From Labrys wisconsinensis (GTDB taxonomy: Bacteria; Pseudomonadota; Alphaproteobacteria; Rhizobiales; Labraceae), in NCBI RefSeq assembly GCF_030814995.1, contig NZ_JAUSVX010000001.1:1-64000 (forward strand): a DNA stretch of 64,000 bases. The letters run 5' to 3'. How positions within the stretch are numbered: position 1 is the stretch's first letter; each line of letters starts with the position of its first letter. Shown here one piece after another: positions 46,532 to 63,828 of this stretch. The notes under the pieces were generated by a model that ran no database searches, had not been told where the DNA came from, and saw nothing but the letters and a program-made list of their open reading frames with translations. Both the position numbers and the translations under genes were made by a program.

Positions 46532-48462
46532 TGCGAAGCGCTTTGGTCGGACTGATCGTCGAAGTAGAATTCGTCGATGTGGTAGGCGCCGAGCATGGCC
46601 GTGGGCTCCCAGGAAAACACCGCCTTGGCCGGCACGTTCTTCAGGTGCTCGGCGACGACCACCGGCTGGATGCTGCCGGCGACCGTGCCGATCACCCACT
46701 GGTTCTCCGCGTGCAGGCGCAGCATCTCGGTCCAGGCGTGGGCCTTGGCCGACAGGTCGCTGGAGGTCAGCCACTGGTCGTAGAGGTCCATCAGCTGCTT
46801 GGCCTCCGGCATGTCGGGGGCCTCGCCGACGCGTCCGCCGGTCTCGAAATATTGGCCCCATTTCGGCCAGGCGAAATTGTCCTGCCGGGTCAGGGCGAGC
46901 TCGCCCGGCGACATCAGCGCCGTCGGCAGCGCGTTGTCGAGCCCCTGGGAGGCCACCATCACCGTCTCGCCGGCAAACGAGCGCTGGCGCAGGTTCGACG
47001 CGTCCTGCGGCTTGATCACCAGCTCGACGCCGATATCGGCCCAGAACTCCGCCGTGATCTGCAGAGCGTCGATCAGGTCGGCCGCATCGCCGGCCACCTC
47101 GACCAGGATCTCCAGCGGCCGCCCGTCCGGCAGCAGCCGTGTGCCCGAGAGGTCACGCTTGGCGAGGCCGATGTCGTCGAGCATGGCATTGGCCCGTTCC
47201 GGGTCGAAGTCGGCCCAGGCCGTGCGGAAATCCGGCTGGTAGAGGGCGCTTTCGGGCATCACCGTGTCATTGCCCTCGATGCCGAGGCCAAACCACAGCG
47301 CGTTGTTCAGGGTGTGCCGGTCGATGCCCAGGGAGAGGGCGCGCCGGAAGCGGACGTCGCGCAGCAGCTTGCGCCAGACCGGGTCGTTGGTCGTCAGGTT
47401 GGGATAGAGCGCGAAGGCCGAGCCGCGGGCGATCGGCCAGAGCAGCGTGCGGTACTTGTGCCCCGCCTCGCCCTCCTTCAGCACCGGGACGTCGGCCATC
47501 GACAGGCCGCGGGCCTGGAGGTCGACCTCGCCGGCATTGGCCTTCGCCGCGAACAGACCCGCCGAGGCGATGTCGACCACGACCCGGTCGATATAGGGCA
47601 GCTGGTGCCCCTCCGGGTCGACCCGATGGAAATAGGGATTGCGCTCGAACACGAAGCGCTGGGCCGGCGCCTTGGTCACGACATACCAGGGATCGAGCAC
47701 CGGCATGTCGACATTGCTCGCCTCGTAGGGATCCTCGAGCTTGTTGTGCAGCGCTGCCCAGGAGGTCGCCTTCTTCTTGGCCACCAGCGCCGCCAGCTGC
47801 TTGGGGTCGGCATATCTGGCGTGGAACTTCCTGAGATAATGCGCCGGCGAGTAGATGAAGATCGGCCGCGGCAGGGCGAGCGACGGCAGGAAACGCGGAT
47901 TGGGCGTGTCCCAGCTGTAGCGGATGTGCCGGGCATCGAGGATCTCGACCTTGGGAAGCTTGCCGCCGGCGATGAACAGGTCGGGTGGCCCGGACGGCGA
48001 CAATTCGCGATTGTTGGCGATGTCTTCCCAGTAGTAGCGGAAGTCCTCGGTGGTGAACGGCGCCCCGTCCGACCAGCGATGCCCCTCGCGCAGGGTGAAG
48101 GTGAAGACCCGGTCGCCCTCGTTGTCGAACTTCTCCAGGACGTCGGGCTTGAGATTGAGATTCTCGTCATAGGTGACGAGCCGCGTATAGCCGTTGACCG
48201 TGACGTAGCGCAGGTCCCGCGCCTTGGCGGCCAGCATGCGCAGCTGGCCGCCATAGCGCCCGATCGTGCGCTTGCGGTCGAGCATGTCGGAGACCAGCGG
48301 CGTCTTCGGCAGGCGCTGCGCCACCGGCTCGAGCTTGCCCGCGGCGACGTCCTTGGCGAGCGAGGGCGGCTCGATGAACTTCGGACCGTCCGCCCGCACC
48401 GGCAGGGCCAGCAGGCAGAGCCCGACGGCGGCGGACAGTCCCAGGCGGACGAGCATGCTCAT
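46528..48462 (-). CDS. ABC importer substrate-binding protein (SBP family 5)
   Basis: The 644-residue periplasmic protein has a Sec signal peptide (LGLSAAVGLCLLALPVRA, cleavage after about residue 24). The mature part has RMLAAKARDLRYV, FTLREGHRWSDGAPFTTED and RRALSLGIDRHTLNN. Its length and the APFTTEDFRYYWEDI region fit the longer family 5 proteins seen with YejE-like permeases. It is coupled by ATGA overlaps to the tandem ATPase upstream and to the permease downstream. Substrate unknown, possibly larger peptides or oligosaccharides. Confidence 0.9.
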   Translation of the reverse strand: MSMLVRLGLSAAVGLCLLALPVRADGPKFIEPPSLAKDVAAGKLEPVAQRLPKTPLVSDMLDRKRTIGRYGGQLRMLAAKARDLRYVTVNGYTRLVTYDENLNLKPDVLEKFDNEGDRVFTFTLREGHRWSDGAPFTTEDFRYYWEDIANNRELSPSGPPDLFIAGGKLPKVEILDARHIRYSWDTPNPRFLPSLALPRPIFIYSPAHYLRKFHARYADPKQLAALVAKKKATSWAALHNKLEDPYEASNVDMPVLDPWYVVTKAPAQRFVFERNPYFHRVDPEGHQLPYIDRVVVDIASAGLFAAKANAGEVDLQARGLSMADVPVLKEGEAGHKYRTLLWPIARGSAFALYPNLTTNDPVWRKLLRDVRFRRALSLGIDRHTLNNALWFGLGIEGNDTVMPESALYQPDFRTAWADFDPERANAMLDDIGLAKRDLSGTRLLPDGRPLEILVEVAGDAADLIDALQITAEFWADIGVELVIKPQDASNLRQRSFAGETVMVASQGLDNALPTALMSPGELALTRQDNFAWPKWGQYFETGGRVGEAPDMPEAKQLMDLYDQWLTSSDLSAKAHAWTEMLRLHAENQWVIGTVAGSIQPVVVAEHLKNVPAKAVFSWEPTAMLGAYHIDEFYFDDQSDQSASQ

Positions 48463-50354
48463 GCGATCGCCATCCTTCGGGGTTCGGCCGCCACGGCTTC
48501 GCCCACGCGCACCCAGTGGCCGGGCACCACCTCGACCATCGCCGGGGGCGGGCCCTCGGGGTGGATCGTGTAGGGCTCGGGCCAGCGTGCCGGATCGGAA
48601 TAGGCCGCGTCGCGGATGACGGCGAAATCGAGCGGGCGGTTGATGTCCGGCTCCGGGATCGCCGCGAGCAGGGCCTTGGTGTAGGGGTGCTGCGGGGCGC
48701 GGAACAGCAGGTCGCGCGGCGCCTGCTCGACGATATGGCCGCGGCACATCACGGCGATCTCGCTGGCCATGTAGTCGACCACGGCCAGATTGTGCGAGAC
48801 GAACAGCAGCGAGATGCCGAGCGCTTTCTGCAGATCCTTCAGCAGGTTGAGGATCTGGGCCTGCACCGAGACGTCGAGCGCCGAGGTCGGCTCGTCGCAC
48901 AGGATCACCGAGGGCGACAGCGCCAGGGCGCGCGCCAGGCCGATGCGCTGGCGCTCGCCGCCGGAGAAGGAATGGGGATAACGGCGCAGGTAGCGCGGGT
49001 CGAGGCCGACCAGGTCGAGCAGCGCCTTCACCCGCTGGTGCCGCCGGTCGGCATCGCCGATGCCGTGGATGATCAGCGGCTCCGACAGGATGTCGTAGAC
49101 GGTCATGCGCGGGTTGAGGCTGGAGAACGGGTCCTGGAACACGAACTGGACCGTGCGGCGATAGGCCTTCAGCGCCTCGGCATCGAGCGCGAACACGTCG
49201 CGCGGGCCGCTGCCGTCGTCGAAGCGCACGTGGCCCTCGTCCGGCTTCACCGCGCGCATGACGATGCGGGCGAGCGTGGTCTTGCCGGAGCCGGATTCGC
49301 CGACCAGGCCCACCGTGGCGCCGGCCTTGATCGACAGGCTCGCCCGCGACAGCGCCGTGATCGTCTCGCGCCGTCCGGACCACAGGCCGGCCCGCATGGT
49401 GAAGACCTTGGAGACGCCGGCGATCTCCAGCACGGGCCGTCCCTTGGCCGGGCCGGCGGTCTCGCAGCCGGCCGAATACATCTCGATGCCGGAAACCTTG
49501 ATCTCGCGCAGCGGCGTCAGCCGCTCGGCCTGCGGCATGTCGAAATGCGGCACGGCCCGGATCAGCGCCTTGAGATAGGGATGCTGGGGCCGCAGGAAGA
49601 TGTCGTCGCGCCGGCCGCGCTCCATCACCTCGCCGCGATACATCACCAGGACGTCGTCGGCCATGTTGGCGACCACGCCGAGGTCGTGGGTGATCAGCAT
49701 CACCGCCGTGCCCTTCTCCGCCTGCACGTCGCGGATCAGGGCCAGGATCTGCGCCTGGGTGGTGACGTCGAGCGCGGTGGTCGGCTCGTCGGCGATCAGG
49801 AGGGCGGGCTTGCAGATCAGAGCCATGGCGATCATGGCGCGCTGGCGCATGCCGCCGGAAAGCTCGAAGGGATAGGTGGTGAGCATGCGCTTGGGCTTGT
49901 GGAAGCCGACATGCCCGAACAGCTTGACCGCGCGCTCCTCCGCCTCCCTGCGGCTGACCTTGGCGTGCAGCCGCAGCGCCTCGGTGACCTGATCGCCGAC
50001 GGTGTGCACCGGCGACAGCGAGGTCATCGGCTCCTGGAAGATCATGGCGATGCGCCCGCCGCGGATGGCGCGCATCGCCTCCCCGTTCGGATCGAGCCTG
50101 GCGATGTCGACCGGCGCGCCGCCGAGCGGGTCGCGGAAGACGATCGAGCCGCCGGTGATCCGCGCCCGCTTCGACAGGATGCCGAGGATCGCCTGGGCCG
50201 TGACGGACTTGCCCGAGCCGGACTCCCCGACCACGGCGAAGGTGCGGCCGGGCATCAGGTCGAAGCTGACCGAGCGCACGGCGTGCACGAGCCCGGCGTC
50301 GCCGTCGAAATCGACGCTGAGATCACGCACGCTCAGCAGAGGCTCGGTGCCCAA
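48459..50354 (-). CDS. Peptide-type ABC importer ATPase, tandem (DppD-DppF fused)
   Basis: This 631-residue protein carries two nucleotide-binding domains. The first has GESGSGKS (43-50), [20 protein letters not shown] and LLIADEP; the second has [30 protein letters not shown] and ILCDEP. It heads the third importer operon. Start choice is uncertain: the TTG at 50354 (GAGG upstream, giving [16 protein letters not shown]) fits the family N-terminus; a GTG at 50372 and an ATG at 50450 are in frame. The C-terminal ~60 residues after the oligo_HPY region are an extension. Confidence 0.9.
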
Positions 50355-50512
50355 ACGCTCGCCCTCGTCCACCAACCGGATGCAGCGGCGTCGCACGGGA
50401 CGCCCGCCGCGCCTTCCGGCACCGGCCGCCCCGTACAACCCCAAAGGCATGACAGGAATGCGAAGAGCCGCGCCCGTCGTTCCCGCCTGCCCCCTTGTTC
50501 TACGCTAACCCT

Positions 50513-52463: not shown

Positions 52464-53599
52464 GCGCCGCTCCGGCGGCCGAGCAGGTCGCCCAGCAGGG
52501 CATCGCAGGCTGCGGCGGCGCTGTCGAGCGAGCGCTGCGTGCGAACGAAAGCGCGGGCCGCGGCGCCGAGCCGCCGGCGCAGAGCCGCATCGGCGCAGAG
52601 CCGCCCGACGGCGGCGGCGTAGGCGCCGGCATCGCCGGGACTGGTCAGCACACCGGTCTCGCCGTCAAGGACGACCGCACCGACCCCTCCGAAATCGCCG
52701 GCGACCGCCGGCAGGCCATGCAGACCTGCCTCGAGGAACACCATGCCGAAAGCCTCGTTCACTGCCGGCCAGAGCAGCAGGTCGGCGTCACAGTAGAACC
52801 GGCCGAGCGCGGCGCGGTCCTCGATCAGCCCGTGCAGCCGGACCCGCTGGCCGAAGCGGGCGAACAGGGCCTCGACCTCGGGCCGCGCCGGCCCGTCGCC
52901 GACGATGTCGAGCCGCCAGTCCGTCGCCTTGATCTGCGCCAAAGCCTCGGCGAGCAGGCGATAGGAGGCGAGCTTGTCGCCCGGGCGCATCATCGCCACG
53001 GTGAGGAAGCGCAGCCCCCCGTCCTCGCTCCGCGCAGGCGCCGTCATGGCGGTCGGCCAGTCGGCCTCGTCGAGGAAGGGTGGCAGCAGCGCCAGGCGCT
53101 GGTGCGCCGGCCGCGCCGCCTCCAGGGCCGGCCGGTCGCGCGGATTGAGGATCAGGATCAGGTCGGCAGCGTCGAGGGCCGCTTCCGCCTGGGCGTGGCC
53201 GAGGGCCCAGGGCCCCCCGGCGCGCTTGGACGCGCGCGAGCCCTCGGCGACGACATAGGGGATGGCCAGGGCGCGGGCGACGCGCGGGCCGATCAGGTCC
53301 GGCGCCTTGTAATAGACATGATAGGTGAACCAGAGCGCCGGCCGCTCGGCCGCCGGGCGGGCGCGATAGGCCTCCACCAGGCGCGCCGCCTCCCGGTCGG
53401 CCTCGACGATCCGGGCGACGGCGCCGGCCGGATCACCCTTGCCGTCGTAGCTCCTCAGCCGCGAGGCGAGCTCGGGCCGCCCGCCGCAGCGCCCGATCAG
53501 CCGCAGCATCAGCCGCGCCATCTCCCGGTCGCCGGACGGCGTCGCATGGTCCGGCGGCTTCAGCGGCGCGTAGAAGGCGACGGGGAAGCCGGCGCTCAT
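52460..53599 (-). CDS. Glycosyltransferase family 4 protein
   Basis: The 379-residue GT-B enzyme has an N-terminal FYAPLKPPDHATPSGDREMA acceptor-side motif, and a C-terminal donor domain with LRFLTVAMMRPGDKLASY, LDIVGDGPARPEV and the EAFGMVFLEAGLHGLPAVA E-x7-E motif. It should add a sugar to a glycan at the cytoplasmic face of the membrane. It overlaps both neighbours by four bases, the arrangement of a single translationally coupled operon. Confidence 0.88.
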   Translation of the reverse strand: MSAGFPVAFYAPLKPPDHATPSGDREMARLMLRLIGRCGGRPELASRLRSYDGKGDPAGAVARIVEADREAARLVEAYRARPAAERPALWFTYHVYYKAPDLIGPRVARALAIPYVVAEGSRASKRAGGPWALGHAQAEAALDAADLILILNPRDRPALEAARPAHQRLALLPPFLDEADWPTAMTAPARSEDGGLRFLTVAMMRPGDKLASYRLLAEALAQIKATDWRLDIVGDGPARPEVEALFARFGQRVRLHGLIEDRAALGRFYCDADLLLWPAVNEAFGMVFLEAGLHGLPAVAGDFGGVGAVVLDGETGVLTSPGDAGAYAAAVGRLCADAALRRRLGAAARAFVRTQRSLDSAAAACDALLGDLLGRRSGA

Positions 53600-54864
53600 G
53601 GCGCGGCGGCGGCCAGGCTCTCGTCGAACTTGGCGACGAGCGTGGCGATGCCGGCCCCGAAGGAAAAGCCGCTCTGCAGGCGCTCCAGCGCGGAGACGCC
53701 GAGCGCGGCGCGCCGGGCGGGGTCGCGGATCAGCGCTTCCAGGGCAGCCGCCAACGCTGCGACGTCGCCGGGCGGCACCAGCACGCCGTCGCGGCCCTCG
53801 CGCACGAATTCCGGCACGCCGGCAAAGCGCGTCGACAGGATCGGCAGGGCCTGCGTCGCCGCCTCCATGATCACGTTGGGCAGTCCGTCGCGGTCGCCCG
53901 CCTCGCCCTCCCGGCACGGCAGCGCGAACAGGTCGGCCGCCTGCAGGGCCTCGATGACCGCCTGCTGCGGCAGGCCGCCGCGCCAGGTGATGCGGTCGGC
54001 GAGGCCGAGGCGCCGCGCCTGCTCCTTCAGCGAAGGCAGGAGCTCGCCCGAGCCGATATGGGTGAAGCGCCACGCGAGGTCCGCCGGCAGCCGCGCCAGC
54101 GCCTCCAGGAGGTCGCCGAAGCCCTTCTTGGCCACGGCGCGGCCGACGGCAACGATCGCCACCGCGCGCTCCGCGCCGCTGCCGTCCGCGTCCGCCCGCC
54201 GCTGCGGCGGCTCCGGGAAGCGCGAGAGGTCGAGGCCGTGATAGACCAGCGACACTTTCTCCGGCTCCAGGTCGGGCGAAAGGCGCCGCAGCGTCTCGCA
54301 GCCAACGCAGGTGCAGGTCACGCCCCAGGCGCTGTCGGCGATCTTCTCGCGCTTCTCCCAGTCCGTCGTGGTCCAGATGTCCTTGGCGTGGGCGGAGAAG
54401 CTGAAGGTCCGGCCGGTCAGGAGCGCCGCATAGCGGGCGACCGAGGCCGGCGTGTGGAGGTAGTGCACGTGGACATGGCGGACCGCATCGGAGAGCTCGT
54501 GGGCGAGGACCAGCGCCTGGCCGAGCCGGCGGCCGCGGTTCGGGGTGGGGTCGCGCAGGACGTCCTTCCAGAACACGGCGAGCACGCGGCGCAGCCGCGG
54601 CCGGCGGAGCGCCGCCCAGGCCCCCTTCAGCACCCGCCACGGCGCCTGGTAGAGATATTCGGGCAGGTAGTGCACCGGCGCGGCGATGCGCAGGTGCATC
54701 TCGTGCACCGCGCCGTCGGTCGGGCGGCGCAGCGACCAGATCTCCAGTGCCAGCCCGGCCTGCTCCAGCCCCAGCAGCTCCTGGGCGATGAAGGTCTCGG
54801 ACAGGCGCGGATAGCCCTTCACCACCACCGCGATCCGGGGCTGGCCCGGCGGGGCCTGCGTCAT
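53596..54864 (-). CDS. Glycosyltransferase family 4 protein
   Basis: The 422-residue enzyme has VVVKGYPRLSETFIAQELL (14-32), characteristic of exopolysaccharide GT4 proteins, HVHYLHTPASVARY, FSFSAHAKDIWTT, and donor-domain motifs AIVAVGRAVAKKGFGDLLEA and GLPNVIMEAATQALPIL. It likely elongates a surface polysaccharide. Start and stop overlap its neighbours by ATGA. Confidence 0.9.
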   Translation of the reverse strand: MTQAPPGQPRIAVVVKGYPRLSETFIAQELLGLEQAGLALEIWSLRRPTDGAVHEMHLRIAAPVHYLPEYLYQAPWRVLKGAWAALRRPRLRRVLAVFWKDVLRDPTPNRGRRLGQALVLAHELSDAVRHVHVHYLHTPASVARYAALLTGRTFSFSAHAKDIWTTTDWEKREKIADSAWGVTCTCVGCETLRRLSPDLEPEKVSLVYHGLDLSRFPEPPQRRADADGSGAERAVAIVAVGRAVAKKGFGDLLEALARLPADLAWRFTHIGSGELLPSLKEQARRLGLADRITWRGGLPQQAVIEALQAADLFALPCREGEAGDRDGLPNVIMEAATQALPILSTRFAGVPEFVREGRDGVLVPPGDVAALAAALEALIRDPARRAALGVSALERLQSGFSFGAGIATLVAKFDESLAAAAP

Positions 54865-56144
54865 TCGCCGGCCACCTTGCCCAGCACCTCGATCGGCGCG
54901 AGCCGTTCGCCGGCCTGGAACCAGGCCGTGGTCAGGCGCTCGATCTGGTTGAGGCCGTCGAGCAGCTGCGGCAGGAAGGCCCGGGAGGGCAGCGGCTGCG
55001 TCGGCAGGTCGTGGATGGCCCGCGCCATCTCCATCGGGTCGCGCGCCGCGCCCGGATCGAGATTGGCGCCGTCGAGCTGGCGCAGGAGGCCGAGGCGGGC
55101 GGCATGCTCGGCCCGGATCGACTGCTCGAGGCGCGGGCTCTTGCGCGGCACGATCAGGGCGCGCTTGTCGAGCGACAGGATCTCGCAGAACGTGTTGTAG
55201 CCGCCCATCGAGATCACCGACGTCGCCTTGCTCATCAGGTGCTCGATCTTGGCATCGAAGGTGATGGCGTCGACATTGGGCAGGCGCGCCACCCGCTCCA
55301 TGAACGGGCCGCGCCGGTCGCGCGCCACGAACGGGCCGAACACGATCAGCGCCGGCATGGCGATGCTCGGGTCGGCCTCGTAGGCCGACAGCACCCAGTC
55401 GATCAGCTCGTGGCCGTCGCCGCCGCCGCCCGTCGTCACCAGCACGAAGGGGCCGCGGGTCAGGCGGGGATAGCGCACCAGGTTGGGCGGCGGCGGCACC
55501 TCGCGCCGGAGATAGCCGGTGTAGACGATGCGCCGGGTCATGTCCTCGGGCAGCGGCAGGCCGGCCAGCGGCTCGTAGATCTCCCTCAGCCCGTAGACCC
55601 AGATATCGTTGTAATACTGGATCAGCGCATCGACCGCGCCCTTGCGTTCCCATTCCGGCACCAGCACCGCCGGATCGTCCATCACGTCGCGGATGCCCAG
55701 CACGATGCGCGCGCCCTGGGCCCGGAGCTCGTCCAGCGCCGGGATCAGCTCGCCGCGAAAGCCCGTCGGCTCCTTGTCGACGATGACGAGGTCGGGGCGC
55801 AGCGTGCGCGCCGTCTGCAGGATGATCGCCTCGCGCATCGCCACCGCCTCGTCCAGCGGCAGGTTGAGGCTGAGGGTGGTGTAGTCGCCGTTCGGCAGCT
55901 TCACCACGCCCGGCACCCGGACATAGTCGACGCCGTCGCCGAACTCGAAGCTGCCGATGATCGGCGAGCCGGAGATGATCACCACCGAGGCGCTCGGATC
56001 GGCCTGCACCAGCCGGTTGGCGATGGCGCGCGAGCGCCTGAGATGCCCGAGCCCGAACGTGTCGTGGCTGTAGATCAGCACGCGCGGCGGGCGCTTCTCG
56101 CGCCCATGCCGCGGCCCGCCCCCTCCGGTGAGATAGTGCAACAT
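54861..56144 (-). CDS. Predicted glycosyltransferase, MurG/GT28-like (COG4671 type)
   Basis: The 427-residue protein opens with RVLIYSHDTFGLGHLRRSRA (21-40), has LVIVDKEPTGFRGEL, VLVTTGGGGDGHELIDWVL and SMGGYNTFCEILSLDKRALI, the hallmarks of the COG4671 predicted glycosyltransferases. Biochemical role is unassigned in the family. It is the first gene of the four-gene operon, and its homology with the GT half of the last gene suggests duplication. The 668-base upstream region separates it from the divergent ABC-like gene. Confidence 0.85.
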   Translation of the reverse strand: MLHYLTGGGGPRHGREKRPPRVLIYSHDTFGLGHLRRSRAIANRLVQADPSASVVIISGSPIIGSFEFGDGVDYVRVPGVVKLPNGDYTTLSLNLPLDEAVAMREAIILQTARTLRPDLVIVDKEPTGFRGELIPALDELRAQGARIVLGIRDVMDDPAVLVPEWERKGAVDALIQYYNDIWVYGLREIYEPLAGLPLPEDMTRRIVYTGYLRREVPPPPNLVRYPRLTRGPFVLVTTGGGGDGHELIDWVLSAYEADPSIAMPALIVFGPFVARDRRGPFMERVARLPNVDAITFDAKIEHLMSKATSVISMGGYNTFCEILSLDKRALIVPRKSPRLEQSIRAEHAARLGLLRQLDGANLDPGAARDPMEMARAIHDLPTQPLPSRAFLPQLLDGLNQIERLTTAWFQAGERLAPIEVLGKVAGE

Positions 56145-56812: not shown

Positions 56813-59494
56813 TTGGACTCCAGCCTCTTTCGATACATCTGGAAGAACAGCCGGGGCGAGCAGATCTTCCTGCTGCTCGTCATCCTGGTGTCGCTTCCCT
56901 TCTACTGGATTTCGCTCGAGGTCCCCAAGCAGATCGTCAACGACGCCATCCAGGGCCGGGCCTTCCGCGACGGCCATGCGACCGCCACCCTCCTGGAATG
57001 GACGGTGTCGCTGCCGAGCTATCTCGGCGGGGCCAAGTTGACGATCTTCAAAGGCCTCGAGCTCGGGCAGATGGCCTTCCTGATGGGGCTGAGCCTGTGG
57101 TTCCTGGTGCTCGTCCTGATCAACGGCGCGTTCAAATATTACATCAACATCCAGAAGGGCATCCTGGGCGAGCGCATGCTGCGGCGCATGCGCTTCGACC
57201 TGTTCTCGCTCCTGATGCGCTTCCGGCCCGAGGACGTGGCCATGGTCAAGCCGGCGGAGGTCGCCAGCATGATCAAGGACGAGGTCGAGCCGATCGGCGG
57301 CTTCATCGGCGACGCCTTCATCCAGCCGGTGTTCCTGTTCAGCCAGGCGGCGACGGCGCTGCTGTTCATCATCGTGCAGAGCTTCTGGATGGGCCTGGCC
57401 GCGCTGGTCATCGTCCTGGTCCAGGCGATCGTCATCCCGATCCTCCGCCGCGAGCAGCTGCGCCTCGGCCGTGCCCGCCAGCTCGCCTCGCGCCAGCTCG
57501 CCGGCCGCATCGGCGAGGTGGTGGAGACCGCGTCCTCGGTGCACAGCTACGGCGCCTCGCCCTATGTCGAGGCCGAGATCGGCGACCGGCTCGGCCACCT
57601 CTACACGATCCGCGCCGACCTGTTCCGGCGCAAGTTCGCGGTCAAGTTCCTGAACAACCTGCTGGCCCAGGTGACGCCCTTCATCTTCTATGCCGTCGGC
57701 GGCTATTTCGCCCTGCAGCGCCAGCTCGACATCGGCCAGCTCGTGGCCGTAATCGCCGCCTATCGCGACCTACCGCCGCCGATCAAGGACCTGATCGACT
57801 GGGACCAGCAGCGCCAGGACGTCGCCATCAAGTACGAGCAGGTGGCAGCCCAGTTCTCGCCGCCGCACCTCCTGCCGCGTAACGACGAGGATGCGGGCCT
57901 GCCGGTGCCCTCGCCGGATGCCCCGATCGAGATCGTCGGGCTGACCGTCGCCGATGCGCGCGGCACGGCCCTGCTCGACCGGGTCTCGACCATCATCGAG
58001 CGCCCGGCGCGCGTTGCGCTGCTCGGAGAGACCGGCGGGGCGCGCGACGTGTTCGCCCGCGTCGTCGGCCGCCAGACGCTGGCCTATCAGGGCAGCGTGC
58101 GCATCGGGCGCGGGGGGGATCTTGCCGACTACCCCGACGGCCTGCTCAGCCGCTTCCTCACCTTCCTCGGCCCGGATCCCTCGCTCCATCCCACCTCGAT
58201 CCGCGACAACATGCTGTTCTCGGTGCGGCGCCGCACGCCGGAGGTCGACGGCGAGGCCGCCGACGAGGCCGAGCGCTGGCGGCTGCTGGAGGCGCGACGC
58301 TCGGGCAATCCGCTGGTCTCGGCCCGGGCCGACTGGATCGACTACGAGGCGATGGGCATCGCCGGCCCCGAGGAGATCGATACCGCCCTGCTCAGGGCCC
58401 TCGATATCGGCGGGGCGCAGGAGGACGTCTACCGGCTCGGCATTCTCGGGCGCTTCGGCCCGGACCAGTCGGAGGAGGTGCTGGAGCGCTTCGTCGAGGC
58501 GCGCCACCAGATCCGCGCCCGCCTCAAGGAGAAGGGCCTGTCGAACCTGGTCGAGCCCTTCGATCCCGAGCGCTACAACATGAGCGCGCCGGTGGGCGAG
58601 AACCTGCTGTTCGGCGTCCCCGTCGGCGGGCGGCTGGCCGCCGACGGCCTGGCGGCCGACCCGTTCCTGCGCTCGATCCTCGAGGCCGAGGCCCTGCTGG
58701 AGCCCTTGATCGACATCGGCCTGCGCCTGGCGGAGATGGCGGTGGAGACCTTCGTCGACCTGCCGCCCGAGCATCCGGTGTTCGAGCGCTATTCGGTGAT
58801 CCAGCCGAGCGACCTGGAGCGCTACAAGGAGATCGTCGATTCCGTCCAGGCCCGCGGCTCGGCCTTCGGCCTGTCGGCCTCGGCCCGCTCCAAGCTCCTC
58901 GCGGTCGGGCTCGCCTATATCGAGCCGCGCCACCGCCTCGGCCTGATCGACGGGCCGTTCAAGCAGCGCGTGCTGCGGGCGCGGCGCAGCTTCCGGCTCT
59001 ATCTGCCGGCCCATTACGCGGCCGAGGTCGAGTTCTACGACCCCGACCGCTACATGCGCGCCGCGCCGCTGCGCGACAACATCCTGTTCGGCCGCATCGC
59101 CTATGGCGTGGCCAACGCCCAGCCCAAGGTCATCACGCTGATCCGCGGCGTCCTGAACGAGCTCGACCTCGATCCCCTCATCTATGGGCTCGGGCTCGAC
59201 TTCGAGGTCGGCAAGGCGGGCAAGCTGCTGCAGCCCATGCAGCGCGCCAAGGTGGCGCTGGCGCGCAGCCTGGTCGGCCATCCCGAGATCCTGGTCCTGG
59301 AGAACGCCCTGGCGGCCCTGTCGCCGTCCGACGCCGAGGCGGTCCTGCCCCGGCTGCTGAAGGAGTTCGAGGGCCGCACCCTGGTCGTCACCCTGGCCGC
59401 CAACGCGCCGACCGCGGGCTTCGACCGGGTGATTCTGTTCGAAGGCGCCCGAATCGTGACGCGAGAGGTTGTAGAACCGGCTCTTTCATCTTAG
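56813..59494 (+). CDS. ABC-exporter-like protein with degenerate ATPase domain and long insertion
   Basis: The 893-residue protein has a type I ABC exporter membrane domain (helices near 18-36, 88-107, 165-212, 275-300; intracellular loop GERMLRRMRFDLFSLLMRF). The nucleotide-binding domain begins near 372 but has lost its catalytic motifs. Walker A reads GETGGARD (405-412, no Lys-Ser/Thr), the signature is LQPMQ (806-810), Walker B ends in LEN (829-831) and no H-loop His is seen. About 290 residues are inserted between its halves, with three related segments: TSIRDNMLFS (461-470), APVGENLLFG (592-601) and APLRDNILFG (751-760). It may be a pseudo-ATPase scaffold or sensor. A cNMP-binding protein and cyclase follow. 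Confidence 0.8.
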   Translation: MDSSLFRYIWKNSRGEQIFLLLVILVSLPFYWISLEVPKQIVNDAIQGRAFRDGHATATLLEWTVSLPSYLGGAKLTIFKGLELGQMAFLMGLSLWFLVLVLINGAFKYYINIQKGILGERMLRRMRFDLFSLLMRFRPEDVAMVKPAEVASMIKDEVEPIGGFIGDAFIQPVFLFSQAATALLFIIVQSFWMGLAALVIVLVQAIVIPILRREQLRLGRARQLASRQLAGRIGEVVETASSVHSYGASPYVEAEIGDRLGHLYTIRADLFRRKFAVKFLNNLLAQVTPFIFYAVGGYFALQRQLDIGQLVAVIAAYRDLPPPIKDLIDWDQQRQDVAIKYEQVAAQFSPPHLLPRNDEDAGLPVPSPDAPIEIVGLTVADARGTALLDRVSTIIERPARVALLGETGGARDVFARVVGRQTLAYQGSVRIGRGGDLADYPDGLLSRFLTFLGPDPSLHPTSIRDNMLFSVRRRTPEVDGEAADEAERWRLLEARRSGNPLVSARADWIDYEAMGIAGPEEIDTALLRALDIGGAQEDVYRLGILGRFGPDQSEEVLERFVEARHQIRARLKEKGLSNLVEPFDPERYNMSAPVGENLLFGVPVGGRLAADGLAADPFLRSILEAEALLEPLIDIGLRLAEMAVETFVDLPPEHPVFERYSVIQPSDLERYKEIVDSVQARGSAFGLSASARSKLLAVGLAYIEPRHRLGLIDGPFKQRVLRARRSFRLYLPAHYAAEVEFYDPDRYMRAAPLRDNILFGRIAYGVANAQPKVITLIRGVLNELDLDPLIYGLGLDFEVGKAGKLLQPMQRAKVALARSLVGHPEILVLENALAALSPSDAEAVLPRLLKEFEGRTLVVTLAANAPTAGFDRVILFEGARIVTREVVEPALSS

Positions 59495-59532: not shown

Positions 59533-59979
59533 ATGGATCTCGACACGGAAGTCCGGACGATCCGCAGCGCGCCGATCTTCGGGGGCCTGTGCGCCTCGAA
59601 GACTCGCCTCCTCTGCTGCATGAGCGAACAGCAGAGCTACGAGCCCGGCGAGTATATCTGCCGTCACGGAGAGCCGTCCGACGCCGCCTACCTCATCCTG
59701 GAGGGCGAGGTCGAGTTCGTCGTCGAATCGCCCGCCGGCGACACGGTGCTGGGGCGCCAGGGCAAGGGCACGATCTTCGGCGAGGTCGGGCTGCTCTGCG
59801 ATCAGGACCGGTTCGCCTCGGTGCGCGCGATTTCCCCGCTTTCGGTGATCCGCATCAACAAGGATGCCATGCTGCGGATGATGCAGGACAACGCCGAATT
59901 CTCGATGTCGATCGCCCGCGAGCTGGCGCATCGGGTGCTGAAGCTGGCCGCGCGCGCGGGCAGCGAGCTGGCGCATTGA
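59533..59979 (+). CDS. Stand-alone cyclic nucleotide-binding domain protein
   Basis: The 148-residue protein is a single cNMP-binding beta-barrel: EPGEYICRHGEPSDAAYLIL (37-56), and a phosphate-binding cassette FGEVGLLCDQDRFASVRA (82-99) with the canonical Glu and Arg. A C-terminal helix follows, but no DNA-binding domain, so it is not a CRP-type regulator. It should report cAMP or cGMP to a partner protein. I used the ATG at 59533 with GGAG six bases upstream; ATG 59521 and TTG 59497 are in frame. It lies 38 bases after the ABC-like gene and 118 before a cyclase, so sensor and source are adjacent. Confidence 0.85.
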   Translation: MDLDTEVRTIRSAPIFGGLCASKTRLLCCMSEQQSYEPGEYICRHGEPSDAAYLILEGEVEFVVESPAGDTVLGRQGKGTIFGEVGLLCDQDRFASVRAISPLSVIRINKDAMLRMMQDNAEFSMSIARELAHRVLKLAARAGSELAH

Positions 59980-60097
59980 CGGGACGGGGCGCCTTCCGGC
60001 AGATCCTGCCGTGACAGACCGGACGGTCGGGCTCGGCGGTCCCCTCCAACGATCCTCGTCGGCCGGTCCAGCAACAGGTCCAGAGTCCCCCCGCCCG

Positions 60098-61810
60098 ATG
60101 AGCGATCCGGAGCAGACGTCTTCGACGCAGACCCCTTTTGATGCCATCGCCAAACGCTGGGCCCTGGAGCGCGAAGCGCGCCTGTGGGCGGGCGTGGTGC
60201 TGTTCGTCTTCGTGACGATGCACTTGCTCAACCACGCCCTCGGCATCTTCGGCGTCGCGGTCATGGAGGCGATGCAGAAGCCGCGCATGGCGCTGTGGCA
60301 GTCCGTGCCGGGCACGGTGGCGCTCTATGGCGCCTTCCTGGTGCACGTGGTGCTGGCGCTGAAGCGCATGGCCCGCCGGCGCTTCTCGCGCATGCCGGCG
60401 GACGAAGCCCTGCAGATCGTGCTCGGCCTGCTCATCCCCTACCTCATCATCGACCATGTCGTGGGCACGCGGGTGCAGTCGCTGCTCGGCTACCGCCAGG
60501 CCTATACGGCGGTGCTGCCCCGGATCTGGGGCGACCCCGCCCTCAAGCAGACCGCGCTGGTGATCTGCGCCTGGGTGCACGGCTGCATCGGCATCTCGCA
60601 GACCTTCCGCAGCAAGGGCTGGTACATCCGCTGGCGCGACCCGCTGCTGGTCGTCGCCGGGCTGGTGCCGCTGCTGGCGCTCGCCGGCTTCGTCTCGGCC
60701 GCGCGCGAGCTGCAGGCCATGGACCTGCAGACCGAGCCGTTGACCCGCAACGACTATTTCGTGCTGCTCGACGTGATCCGCTGGTCGCTCGCCGCCTTCG
60801 CCGGCGCGATGAGCCTGGTGCTGGCGGTGATCGCCTGGCGGGTGCTGCACCGCCGCCGCTCGGGCATGATCACCATCAAATATACCGGGCACGGCTCGGT
60901 CGTGGTCGGCCGGGGCACGACGGTGCTGGAGGCGAGCCGCATCAACGGCATTCCCCACCCGGCGATCTGCGGCGGGCGCGGGCGCTGCTCGACCTGCCGG
61001 GTCGCGATCAATTCCGACCTCTCCGACCTGCCGCCGGTCGGCCCGACCGAGCGCGCCATGCTGCAGCGCATCTCGGCGCCGCCGAACGTGCGCCTCGGCT
61101 GCCAGCTGCGCCCGGCCGGCGACCTGTCGGTGCAGATCCTGCTGCCGATCCTGCCGGCGGGCGGGCGGCTCGAGGCCAAGGACGAGGCCTATCGCTGGGG
61201 CGTCGAGCGCAACGTCACCGTGCTGTTCGTCGACATCCGCGCCTTCAACACCCTGGCGCGCAAGCAGCTGCCCTATGACCTCGTGCTGCTGCTGAACCGC
61301 TTCATCCGCGAGATGACGCAGGCGGCCACCGCCCATGGCGGCCGGGTCGACAGCTTCATGGCCGACGGCCTGATGGCGATCTTCGGCCTCGGCTCCAGCA
61401 CCGATGCCGGCGCCCGCGAGGCGATCATGGCGGCGCGCGCCATGCTGAAGGTGGTCGAGGGCCTCAACCGCGAGTTCGGCGCGGCCATGCCGATCCCGCT
61501 GCGCGTCGGCATCGGCATCCATACCGGCCCCGCCATCATCGCCCAGATCGGCGACGTCGAGCACGGCATGCTGATGACCGCGCTCGGCGAGACCGTCACC
61601 ATCGCCAGCCGGTTGGAGGCCGCCACCAAGGACTACCTCACCGACGCGCTGGTCTCGGCCCAGACCGCCAGGGCCTCGGGTCTCGACCTGCCGCGCTACG
61701 AGGGCAAGCGGCTGCATATCCGCGGGCACGACGAGCCGATCATCCTGCACCTCATCGACGAGCGGGAGCCGCCGGCCAAGCAGCCCAGGCCCGAACTCTC
61801 CCATTCGTGA
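60098..61810 (+). CDS. Membrane [2Fe-2S] class III adenylate/guanylate cyclase
   Basis: The 570-residue protein has six membrane helices (about 31-250) with conserved His in MHLLNHALG, LVHVVL, IIDHVV and WVHG, reminiscent of a heme-binding membrane anchor. A plant-type ferredoxin domain follows (Cys291, Cys297, Cys300, Cys335; [2Fe-2S]), then a class III cyclase domain from about 372. Metal-binding Asp379 (VLFVDIRAF) and Asp423 (FMADGLMAIFG) are present, but the substrate Lys of KxxGD is Ser419 and the transition-state Asn is Thr501 (GETVTIASRLE; Arg505 kept). Redox state could gate cNMP synthesis. The ATG at 60098 is used; a GTG at 60011 is possible. Confidence 0.85.
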   Translation: MSDPEQTSSTQTPFDAIAKRWALEREARLWAGVVLFVFVTMHLLNHALGIFGVAVMEAMQKPRMALWQSVPGTVALYGAFLVHVVLALKRMARRRFSRMPADEALQIVLGLLIPYLIIDHVVGTRVQSLLGYRQAYTAVLPRIWGDPALKQTALVICAWVHGCIGISQTFRSKGWYIRWRDPLLVVAGLVPLLALAGFVSAARELQAMDLQTEPLTRNDYFVLLDVIRWSLAAFAGAMSLVLAVIAWRVLHRRRSGMITIKYTGHGSVVVGRGTTVLEASRINGIPHPAICGGRGRCSTCRVAINSDLSDLPPVGPTERAMLQRISAPPNVRLGCQLRPAGDLSVQILLPILPAGGRLEAKDEAYRWGVERNVTVLFVDIRAFNTLARKQLPYDLVLLLNRFIREMTQAATAHGGRVDSFMADGLMAIFGLGSSTDAGAREAIMAARAMLKVVEGLNREFGAAMPIPLRVGIGIHTGPAIIAQIGDVEHGMLMTALGETVTIASRLEAATKDYLTDALVSAQTARASGLDLPRYEGKRLHIRGHDEPIILHLIDEREPPAKQPRPELSHS

Positions 61811-61961: not shown

Positions 61962-63071
61962 GTGATTGATCTGGTTGCCACCGCAACGAAGTCCGCCGCC
62001 CCCAAGGGCCTGCACGCCTTCCGCGCCGCCCTCGAGGCGCGGCTCTCCCGCTCGCCGCTCGGCCGCCGGGCCTTCCAGGCCGGGATGCGACACCTGCCGC
62101 TGCGCTTCTTCAAGAAGCTGCCGACGATCATCATCATCGACGTCACCAATTCCTGCAACCTGCGCTGCCCGGTCTGCCCGGTGACCTTCGCCATGCACCG
62201 CCCGCGCGGCCTGATGACGCTCGACATCTTCAAGCAGATCGTCGACGACTTCATCCCGCAGCCGAAGAAGCCGGCGATGTATTTCAACTTCTCGGGCGAG
62301 CCGACCCTCAACAAGGCGCTGCCCGACATGATCGCCTATGCCCACACCCATGGGCACGAGACCTTCGTCTCCACCAACGCCACCAAGCTGTCCTCGGAGC
62401 TGATCGAGAAGCTGATCCGCTCCGGCCTGTCGCGCATCAACCTGTGCATCGACGGCTTCTCCAAGGAGGCGCAGGAGGCCTATCGCGTCGGCTCCAAGTT
62501 CGAGCAGGTCAAGGCCAATATCGAAAATTTCCTCGCCATCCGCGCCCGTCTCGGCGCCACCAACCCGACCACGGTGCTGCAGACCCTGCTCACCTCCTAT
62601 TCGGAGAAGCAGGTCGACGAGATGGTGGAATGGGCCGACCGCATCGGCTTCGACCAGGTGCGCTTCAAGACCTTCAGCCTCGGCTCCTACACCGACGACG
62701 ACCAGCAGTCGGAGTACGGCTATCTCGTGCCTGAGAATCACGACCTCCAGCGCCACCAGACCGAGAAGGTCAGCCTGCTCTGCGACGTGCCGCTCTACCA
62801 GACCGTGGTGTTCTGGAACGGCGACCTCGGCCTGTGCTGCATCGACTACGACCAGGTGATCAAGCTGCCGAGCGTCGACAAGGTCGGCTTCATCAAGGCC
62901 TATCTCTCGGACGAGGCGACGCGAGCCCGCCGCACCGGCTACACCAAGAGCTTCAGCATCTGCCAGAGCTGCTCCTATTCCAACGCCGACAACATGGGCT
63001 TCAAGATCGACTTCCGGAAGCGGCGCCGGCGCGCGCGTGAGGCGGCCGCCGCGCCCGCGGCGGCCGCCTGA
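61962..63071 (+). CDS. Radical SAM protein with SPASM-like C-terminus
   Basis: The 369-residue enzyme has the radical SAM CxxxCxxC motif (Cys65, Cys69, Cys72 in NSCNLRCPVCP), FNFSGEPTLN as the GGE-like AdoMet motif, and a Cys-rich C-terminal region (LLCDVPLYQTVVFWNGDLG, LCC, then CQSCSY) like SPASM auxiliary-cluster domains. It could modify a peptide, lipid or sugar by radical chemistry. The GTG at 61962 has AAAGGA upstream. The Ala-rich C-terminus ends 10 bases before an FkbM methyltransferase gene, and both lie beside a glycan locus. Confidence 0.85.
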   Translation: MIDLVATATKSAAPKGLHAFRAALEARLSRSPLGRRAFQAGMRHLPLRFFKKLPTIIIIDVTNSCNLRCPVCPVTFAMHRPRGLMTLDIFKQIVDDFIPQPKKPAMYFNFSGEPTLNKALPDMIAYAHTHGHETFVSTNATKLSSELIEKLIRSGLSRINLCIDGFSKEAQEAYRVGSKFEQVKANIENFLAIRARLGATNPTTVLQTLLTSYSEKQVDEMVEWADRIGFDQVRFKTFSLGSYTDDDQQSEYGYLVPENHDLQRHQTEKVSLLCDVPLYQTVVFWNGDLGLCCIDYDQVIKLPSVDKVGFIKAYLSDEATRARRTGYTKSFSICQSCSYSNADNMGFKIDFRKRRRRAREAAAAPAAAA

Positions 63072-63081
63072 CGAACGATCC

Positions 63082-63828
63082 ATGGCTCCTGCCGCTCCCC
63101 GCGCCGTCGCGATCGGCGCCGCGTCCTTCTTCGTGGTCGACGACAAGGAGACCTTCTGGGACAAGGTCGCGGCCGACGCCTGGGAACCCGAGACCCTGGC
63201 GGCGGTCGGCGCCCTCGCCGGGCCCGGCACGCTGCTGATCGACCTCGGCGCCTGGATCGGCCCGATCAGCCTGATGGCGGCGGCGCGGGGCGCCCGCGTG
63301 CTGGCCTTCGAGCCGGATCCCCGCGCGTTCGAGCTCCTCGCGGCCAACCTCGCCGCCAACCCGGCGCTCGCCGGCGCCGTGCGCCTGCACAACCGCGCGG
63401 CGGCGCCGGAGCCTGGCCGCATCCGCCTGGGCTCGCCGCGCAAGCCCGGCGACAGCATGGGCAGCATCCTCATGGCCGGCAATGCCGCCGCCACCTGGGA
63501 GGCCGACACGCTCACGTCAGGCGACATCGCAGCCCTGGCGGACGGCGCCGAGCGCATCGTGCTGAAGATCGACATCGAAGGCGCCGAATACGCCCTGCTG
63601 CCGCATCTCGCCCCCCTGCTCGGCCCGCGCACGGCGGCGGCGCTGGTCGCCTTTCATCCCCGGCTGCTGCAGGCTGCCGGCCATGCCGCCGCCGAGATCG
63701 AGCGCCTCACCGACGCGGCCACGGCCGTCTTCGCCGGCTACCGCGCCCGCCCGCTCGACCTCGTCGCCGAAGCCGGCGCGCCTGTCGTCTCGACCACGCG
63801 CAACGCCACGGTGCTGTTCAGCCGCTGA
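63082..63828 (+). CDS. FkbM family methyltransferase
   Basis: The 248-residue protein has the FkbM layout: LLIDLGAWIGPISLMAAARG (motif I, about 51-70), VLAFEPDPRAFELLAANL (motif II) and VLKIDIEGAEYALLPHL (motif IV). FkbM enzymes O-methylate sugars and polyketides. The ATG at 63082 directly follows the radical SAM gene, so they form an operon that may decorate the glycan made upstream. Its 3' end overlaps the convergent epimerase gene by 11 bases. Confidence 0.88.
   Translation: MAPAAPRAVAIGAASFFVVDDKETFWDKVAADAWEPETLAAVGALAGPGTLLIDLGAWIGPISLMAAARGARVLAFEPDPRAFELLAANLAANPALAGAVRLHNRAAAPEPGRIRLGSPRKPGDSMGSILMAGNAAATWEADTLTSGDIAALADGAERIVLKIDIEGAEYALLPHLAPLLGPRTAAALVAFHPRLLQAAGHAAAEIERLTDAATAVFAGYRARPLDLVAEAGAPVVSTTRNATVLFSR

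Follow-up and report, generated by a model that had tools for sequence, protein, structure and literature searches.

Can an ABC (ATP-binding cassette) exporter that has lost its ATPase motifs still have a function, and if so which one? The question is raised by a gene at positions 56,813-59,494 of a 64,000-nucleotide stretch of DNA (the window) at the start of contig NZ_JAUSVX010000001.1 of Labrys wisconsinensis, an alphaproteobacterium of the order Rhizobiales. ABC proteins are defined by ATP. The first-pass annotation of the window had described the product as an exporter fold with a dead ATPase domain and a large insertion containing triplicated segments, under selection for a non-transport function. 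The explanation that we favor, with somewhat less than even confidence, is that the gene encodes the membrane protein of a two-part module, an ATP-independent channel, carrier or transducer. Its dead nucleotide-binding domain (NBD) would serve as the docking platform for a cyclic-nucleotide switch. The features of the locus are collected in Table 1.

Table 1. Features of the pseudo-ABC gene and its surroundings (positions in the window; residues are those of the pseudo-ABC protein)
Feature	Positions	Strand	Basis
Pseudo-ABC exporter gene, 893 aa, TTG start	56813..59494	+	uninterrupted frame; Pfam and AlphaFold2 model
Transmembrane domain (TMD), residues 1-360	56813..57892	+	model and family column conservation
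Short beta-strand segment between the first two long helices, residues 58-84	56984..57064	+	model secondary structure
Walker A position GETGGARD, residues 405-412	58025..58048	+	sequence and family alignment
Module 1, the protein's own Q-loop/helical segment, residues 444-545, RDNMLFS	58142..58447	+	profile comparison
Stretch from Q-loop module to signature, housing the insertion, residues 476-790	58238..59182	+	model and family alignment
Module 2, residues 575-638, FDPERY...GENLLFG	58535..58726	+	profile comparison
Module 3, residues 734-796, FYDPDRY...RDNILFG	59012..59200	+	profile comparison
Signature position LQPMQ, residues 806-810	59228..59242	+	sequence and family alignment
Walker B position VLEN, residues 828-831	59294..59305	+	sequence and family alignment
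H-loop position, without His; surrounding TLAANAP	59390..59401	+	family alignment
Single-domain cNMP-binding protein, 160 aa	59497..59979	+	PF00027 E 4.6e-22; linkage counts
Cassette GEVGLLCDQDRFASVRA of the cNMP-binding protein, taken to be phosphate-binding, Glu and Arg kept	59779..59829	+	alignment of partner proteins
CyaC-type protein: membrane domain with conserved His, [2Fe-2S] ferredoxin domain, class III cyclase domain	60011..61810	+	Pfam, alignment
Glycosyltransferase family 4, divergent neighbour	53596..54840	-	family search
Family-28-type glycosyltransferase, divergent neighbour	54861..56144	-	family search
Dual ABC ATPase of oligopeptide importer, recurrent neighbour	48459..50450	-	family search and locus clustering

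An exporter fold without its ATPase residues

The protein has an ABC exporter fold. Pfam finds ABC_membrane (PF00664) with an E-value of 1.3e-12, and ABC_tran (PF00005) scores 14.1 bits (E 0.075), below its cut-off of 25; some relatives exceed this cut-off, e.g. L034 with 27.6 and L167 with 48.8 bits. The structure prediction and exporter comparison proposed in the first-pass annotation agree with this. An AlphaFold2 model, with 64 family members as input alignment, has a mean pLDDT of 88.2 and a pTM of 0.83. Its low-confidence spots, residues 171-200 and 311-330, both lie in the membrane part, and the inserted region 481-800 has a pLDDT of 84-97 per ten-residue block except for 77 at 651-660. 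Foldseek with the model retrieves ABC exporters. The top rows are P-glycoprotein chains, with E-values to 8.8e-15 and TM-scores below 0.3. The best half-size matches among the 50 rows shown are to MsbA (7ph3_A, E 1.1e-11, TM-score by target 0.56), and TmrAB (5mkk_A, TM-score by target 0.52) is also among them. The beta-strand segment at residues 58-84 is presumably periplasmic, as judged from exporter topology.

None of the eight canonical ATPase residues is kept in the window protein, and Arg, Asp, Glu and Asn stand in place of the expected Lys, Ser/Thr, Asp and Glu. The motifs had been read correctly in the first-pass annotation (GETGGARD, LQPMQ, LEN within VLEN, no H-loop His), and the ATPase domain is dead by this measure. 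The loss is not peculiar to the window. A set of 168 distinct full-length members, equivalent to 119 representatives under 80% identity, was defined by a family-profile match from before position 100 to beyond 840 with more than 500 bits. Identical central parts were removed, and copies that consist of a TMD only, have an altered TMD or are truncated are excluded. The LSGGQ signature is absent from all 168. A canonical Walker A (GxxGxGK[ST]) is found in two of them, L167 and L168; Walker B DE is found in 5/168 and the H-loop His in 24/168. At most five of the eight canonical residues are retained by any member. The degeneracy is family-wide but graded. L167 and L168 have GSxDSGKS and DE but neither the signature nor the H-loop His; in both proteins the insertion is present and a cyclic-nucleotide-binding (cNMP) domain is fused. 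Homologues with canonical motifs and no insertion, which had been tied to the idea of a recent local pseudogene, were not found among the 168. Family-wide conservation of degeneracy and insertion, seen in the proposed alignment of homologues, rejects that idea.

The graded loss raises the possibility of an energy-state sensor, in which ATP or another nucleotide would bind the altered site without hydrolysis, making cyclic nucleotide and ATP two inputs. Walker A Lys is kept in 35 of the 119 representatives and Walker B Glu in 31, and the two co-occur (Fisher p 1.5e-4, kinship ignored). Where the Walker A Ser/Thr position holds Asp or Glu, the Walker B Asp tends to be Asn (p 8e-5, phylogeny uncorrected), a correlation considered as a possible charge swap at the magnesium site. 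The motifs of L167 and L168 fit such a sensor, and the four substituted residues of the window member argue against it. For members that have both the P-loop Lys and the Walker B Glu, ATP sensing is the strongest rival; for the window member it is weak, and as an account of the module we consider it rather unlikely.

A dead site could also mean that the protein pairs, as the non-catalytic subunit, with a catalytic ABC half encoded at another locus. Such heterodimers, in which one site is degenerate, are familiar among exporters (TmrAB is an example), and the genome has 10 other PF00664 matches. A genome-contig scan gave 500 confirmed stretches, of which 80 were kept as contig loci. A canonical half-exporter lies within a flank of at most 8 kb in 2/80 of these loci (L041 and L042, close relatives), plus L143 outside the set, and a partner encoded nearby is therefore rejected. 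Second, the P-loop side and the signature are both altered, so that a mixed dimer would have no complete site. Third, relatives that consist of a TMD only indicate that the membrane part can do without its own NBD. On this evidence a heteromer is improbable.

A triplicated module and a constrained membrane domain

The large insertion reported by the first-pass annotation is real. The stretch aligned to residues 476-790 is present in 168/168 full-length members and spans 289-388 residues, with a median of 316. The three RDN/GEN-x-LFG segments noticed within it proved to be homologous modules, with a correction: the first copy ends in S rather than G and is the protein's own Q-loop. Profile-profile comparison gives E-values of 6e-16 (module 2 versus 3), 3e-9 (1 versus 3) and 1e-6 (1 versus 2). 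Because these are far beyond the column-reversed controls (E 0.0055-0.072), the modules are homologous rather than chance motif matches, and the insertion contributes modules 2 and 3, module 1 being the native Q-loop. Each module consists of a strand, a Q-loop-like turn, a helix with the pattern xSIRDNLLFG and a stretch of the form "vL..xgL...lGL"; in ABC terms these are the Q-loop and the first part of the helical subdomain. The FDPERY- or YDPDRY-like motif precedes GENLLFG and RDNILFG, as had been described. A longer repeat unit that includes the "ilxAR" helix is detected between the first two copies (E 3.5e-10). Extension of this unit to the signature helix is unclear: E-values of 0.0039 and 0.032 compare with 0.029-0.039 for the reversed controls.

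Conservation within the protein is highest in the membrane domain and lowest in the NBD halves. Columns with at least 95% identity number 53 of 346 in the TMD, versus 1/110 in the N-terminal NBD half, 7/313 in the insertion and 3/95 in the C-terminal NBD half (11/518 outside the TMD). The gene is under purifying selection: dN/dS is 0.03-0.11 in seven close-relative pairs, with the TMD lowest in five of the seven. For the window and its Labrys relative L037 the overall ratio is 0.42, with 0.30 for the TMD and 0.71 for the N-terminal half of the NBD. The NBD is fast-evolving in the window lineage, which speaks against a simple claim of tight selection. The value of 0.71 is also what a decaying gene would lead one to expect. 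The 893-residue open frame, clean as first noted, the conserved family and neighbour, the TMD value of 0.30 in this pair and the low overall values of the seven other pairs make decay hardly credible. Of the earlier proposal that selection for a non-transport function is at work rather than decay, the second half holds for recent decay, and the first half is one possibility. Because the TMD is most conserved and TMD-only relatives sit in copper operons, ATP-independent transport or channel activity is possible as well. A working exporter with unconventional ATPase motifs would likewise account for the exporter fold, and for the glycosyltransferases and peptide importer that adjoin the gene in many loci. 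The canonical catalytic positions vary in the family, however, and the NBD halves are the least conserved; we regard this alternative as quite improbable.

The relatives that lack any NBD are of two origins, genomic and plasmid-borne. L136-L140 have frames of 361-425 residues (L138 is cut by the contig). Copies on seven plasmids are annotated as 419-497 aa; the annotation of the eighth plasmid, H88, instead shows a single 602-residue reading, which absorbs a cupredoxin-side frame standing separate in H87. Seven TMD-only copies retain 32-46 of the 53 family-invariant TMD residues and five canonical exporters 0-9, a weak control, as two of the five aligned at 0 and are possibly misaligned. All eight plasmid TMD-only copies whose surroundings were read (L150, L151, L195-L200) sit in copper-resistance operons of the Roseobacter group; they are 8 of 14 partial-coverage rows listed, and several are near-identical. 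Copper oxidase, copper-binding or cupredoxin genes lie just upstream, and a cytochrome c gene is close downstream in 5/8. The neighbours of the genomic copies L136, L137 and L139 resemble copper genes by sequence start. The TMD tree places the TMD-only rows within the full-length family, on long branches and with modest support. From these sequences the membrane part appears able to dispense with its own NBD. In L133 (4434-7022), L134 and L135 the same degenerate NBD and insertion are joined to a different, weakly similar membrane domain; the locus profile search found no cNMP neighbour in these three.

Matches to the family (E 1e-30) occur in 29/60 relatives, in 132/385 genomes sampled from the class (88/277 genera) and in 32/398 genomes sampled from the phylum; 31 of the latter belong to the window's class and the remaining one is TMD-only. 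Each of these counts includes the window's own genome as well as partial and altered copies. Among plasmid records 343/72,556 match, and in 262 of them the match covers 80% or more of the query. Among named organisms, the closest proteins are from Labrys, with 65-66% identity. The window's genome has one copy; of four other Labrys genomes three have three each and the fourth has none. L141, from a genome labelled as the same class and another order, is the copy nearest the window on the TMD tree, from which Labrys copies had been thinned beforehand. It has cNMP and CyaC-type genes in the window's order, and its placement would be compatible with horizontal transfer, which is possible.

The cyclic-nucleotide-binding partner and the gene row

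A cNMP gene is a near-constant companion of the pseudo-ABC family. In the main locus set, the 131 full-length members of 141 loci, this gene is adjacent in 123, fused in 5 and absent in 3 (L038, L101, L116), "adjacent" meaning a same-strand profile match within 1.5 kb downstream. The remaining ten of the 141 are TMD-only, altered in the TMD or cut by a contig end, and some genomes are doubly counted (e.g. L001 and L129, both the window itself). In 40 further loci the gene is adjacent in 27, fused in 11 and absent in 2 (L187, L190). Fifteen of these were chosen for their long open frames; the other 25 follow the order of the locus numbers, with gaps, and have 23 adjacent and 2 absent. The gap between the ABC-like gene and the cNMP domain is below 300 bp in all cases except L169 (622). 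Two additional fused cases, L152 and L153, are on plasmids. In the TMD tree the fused forms lie near the base and the separate forms make up the bulk; the outgroup branches are long and the root is unsure. L034 alone looks like a separate fusion, nested in a supported group. The co-occurrence with cNMP and cyclase genes that had been proposed for analysis thus holds for the first, with the cNMP domain in 128/131 full-length loci, and falls short for the second, with a CyaC-type gene in only 51/80.

The partner itself is small. The median number of residues after the cNMP domain is 14 in 171 partners, and only one has more than 60. It resembles Crp/Fnr regulators in its cyclic-nucleotide-binding domain with intact cassette; unlike them, the window partner has no C-terminal DNA-binding domain detectable by Pfam. 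Cassette Glu and Arg are both present in 121/163 distinct partner sequences, the window's included. A joint decay of cNMP pocket and NBD was considered; the correlation is not significant (p 0.15). The window's genome has 15 cNMP-domain and 11 ABC-membrane (PF00664) matches, the window's included. By coordinates, the two come close together only at the window and at a locus on C9 (L194) of the type known from NHLM bacteriocin exporters.

The NHLM systems (TIGR03796, TIGR03797, TIGR03896) are like the window in having ABC exporter genes beside a cNMP-domain gene. Unlike them, the window protein scores 60.5 and 31.8 bits versus cut-offs of 853 and 709, and its partner 33.8 versus 161. The C9 locus encodes ABC1, ABC2 and a cNMP protein; the two ABC proteins score above the exporter cut-offs, and the cNMP protein has 131.6 versus the cut-off of 161.

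The next gene in the row encodes a CyaC-type protein. CyaC of Sinorhizobium meliloti is described as a redox-responsive membrane protein that combines a class III cyclase domain with a [2Fe-2S] cluster and two heme b, and changes at K410/T484 and R495/N491 serve as its inactive forms (PMC10463352). In that paper the gene is placed next to genes for TetR and LysR regulators, and the term "ABC transporter" does not occur in the main text. The window's CyaC-type protein is like S. meliloti CyaC in having membrane His, [2Fe-2S] Cys and a class III cyclase domain, and differs from this published description in that the cyclase-site Lys and Asn are replaced in the window and in most relatives. Five membrane His are kept in 50-51 of 51 CyaC-type proteins and four ferredoxin Cys in 51/51, the window's included; the heme ligands would be found among these His. 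The metal Asp residues are kept in 51 and 50 of the 51, and the substrate Lys, Asn and Arg in 2, 4 and 9, respectively. The cyclase columns were set by known class III motifs rather than by alignment to S. meliloti CyaC. In the window the Lys is replaced by Ser and the Asn by Thr, and the Arg is kept. The CyaC-type protein of this gene row looks impaired or altered in specificity, judging from its residues. Its gene is found in the 51 contig loci mentioned above (47 by a cruder clustering) and is missing from several genera; as a general core of the system the CyaC association is rejected.

Other neighbours recur as well. The minus-strand segment 48459-56144 holds the oligopeptide-importer ATPase and several glycosyltransferases, which recur beside the module in many loci. 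In the 62 loci with full flanks the importer-type ATPase is found in 48 and the family 4 glycosyltransferase in 44, the clusters being named from the window's own genes and by sequence start. Both kinds of neighbour are also present on Rhizobium and Sinorhizobium plasmids. At 61962-63828 a radical SAM/SPASM protein is followed by an overlapping FkbM-type methyltransferase. This pair is also in the Labrys loci L035-L037, and a radical SAM/SPASM or FkbM-type gene lies near the module in a few further loci.

A membrane protein switched through a dead NBD?

A motif-less exporter fold, a most-constrained TMD, a near-constant lone cNMP domain and NBD-less relatives together point to an ATP-independent protein switched via its dead NBD. 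The TMD would work as a channel, carrier or signal transducer without ATP hydrolysis. The former NBD, enlarged by two extra Q-loop/helical modules, would be the platform on which the single-domain cNMP-binding protein docks, and the docked protein would then switch the membrane part. In the window's clade the heme/iron-sulfur CyaC-type protein of the same gene row probably reports the respiratory redox state to the module. As to the substance that may be passed or sensed, the copper and redox contexts give only a hint.

Several observations weigh against this mechanism. First, the canonical Walker A and DE of L167 and L168 indicate that an ATP site persisted in at least one lineage. Second, intact-scoring NHLM exporters also have a cNMP partner, so the partner alone does not imply ATP independence. 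Third, the cNMP pocket is altered in part of the family: in 21/114 representatives the Glu is missing, alone or together with the Arg, and nine of these 21 are labelled Bosea. Fourth, a cruder count with home-made gene calls places the cNMP gene in 64/80 loci, below the profile-search figure, and given the weakly rooted tree, fusion is not a clear independent confirmation of the pairing. Finally, the CyaC-type protein is limited to part of the loci and, seemingly impaired in catalysis, may not make the ligand.

Comparison with known proteins sets the family apart. Like ABC type IV exporters (MsbA, TmrAB, P-glycoprotein) the window protein has an exporter-type membrane domain followed by an NBD fold; unlike them it keeps no ATPase motif, has about 315 residues between Q-loop module and signature, and has a cNMP partner. 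CFTR and SUR are ABC folds turned channel or regulator in which the nucleotide-binding sites are kept, and to our knowledge neither has a cNMP-domain partner of the window kind. Degenerate ABC domains are already known, as are, separately, ABC genes with cNMP partners; the novelty is the combination in one family. No paper on a pseudo-ABC family with lost motifs, triplicated Q-loop modules and a near-constant cNMP partner was found in a search of one open-access library.

The wider proposal, possible though doubtful in our estimate, is a new kind of membrane switch, in which an exporter fold has swapped ATP for cyclic nucleotide through a three-module docking platform, with a redox pseudo-cyclase in one clade and an NBD-less branch in copper operons. 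If true, a pump would have become a signal-gated membrane protein by a route other than that of CFTR. The pseudo-ABC protein would be a candidate membrane target for the single-domain cNMP proteins of rhizobia and their relatives, one of which carries the annotation of a transcriptional regulator of the Crp/Fnr type. For the pseudo-ABC family itself, public database labels such as "ABC transporter ATP-binding protein" would then be put in question.

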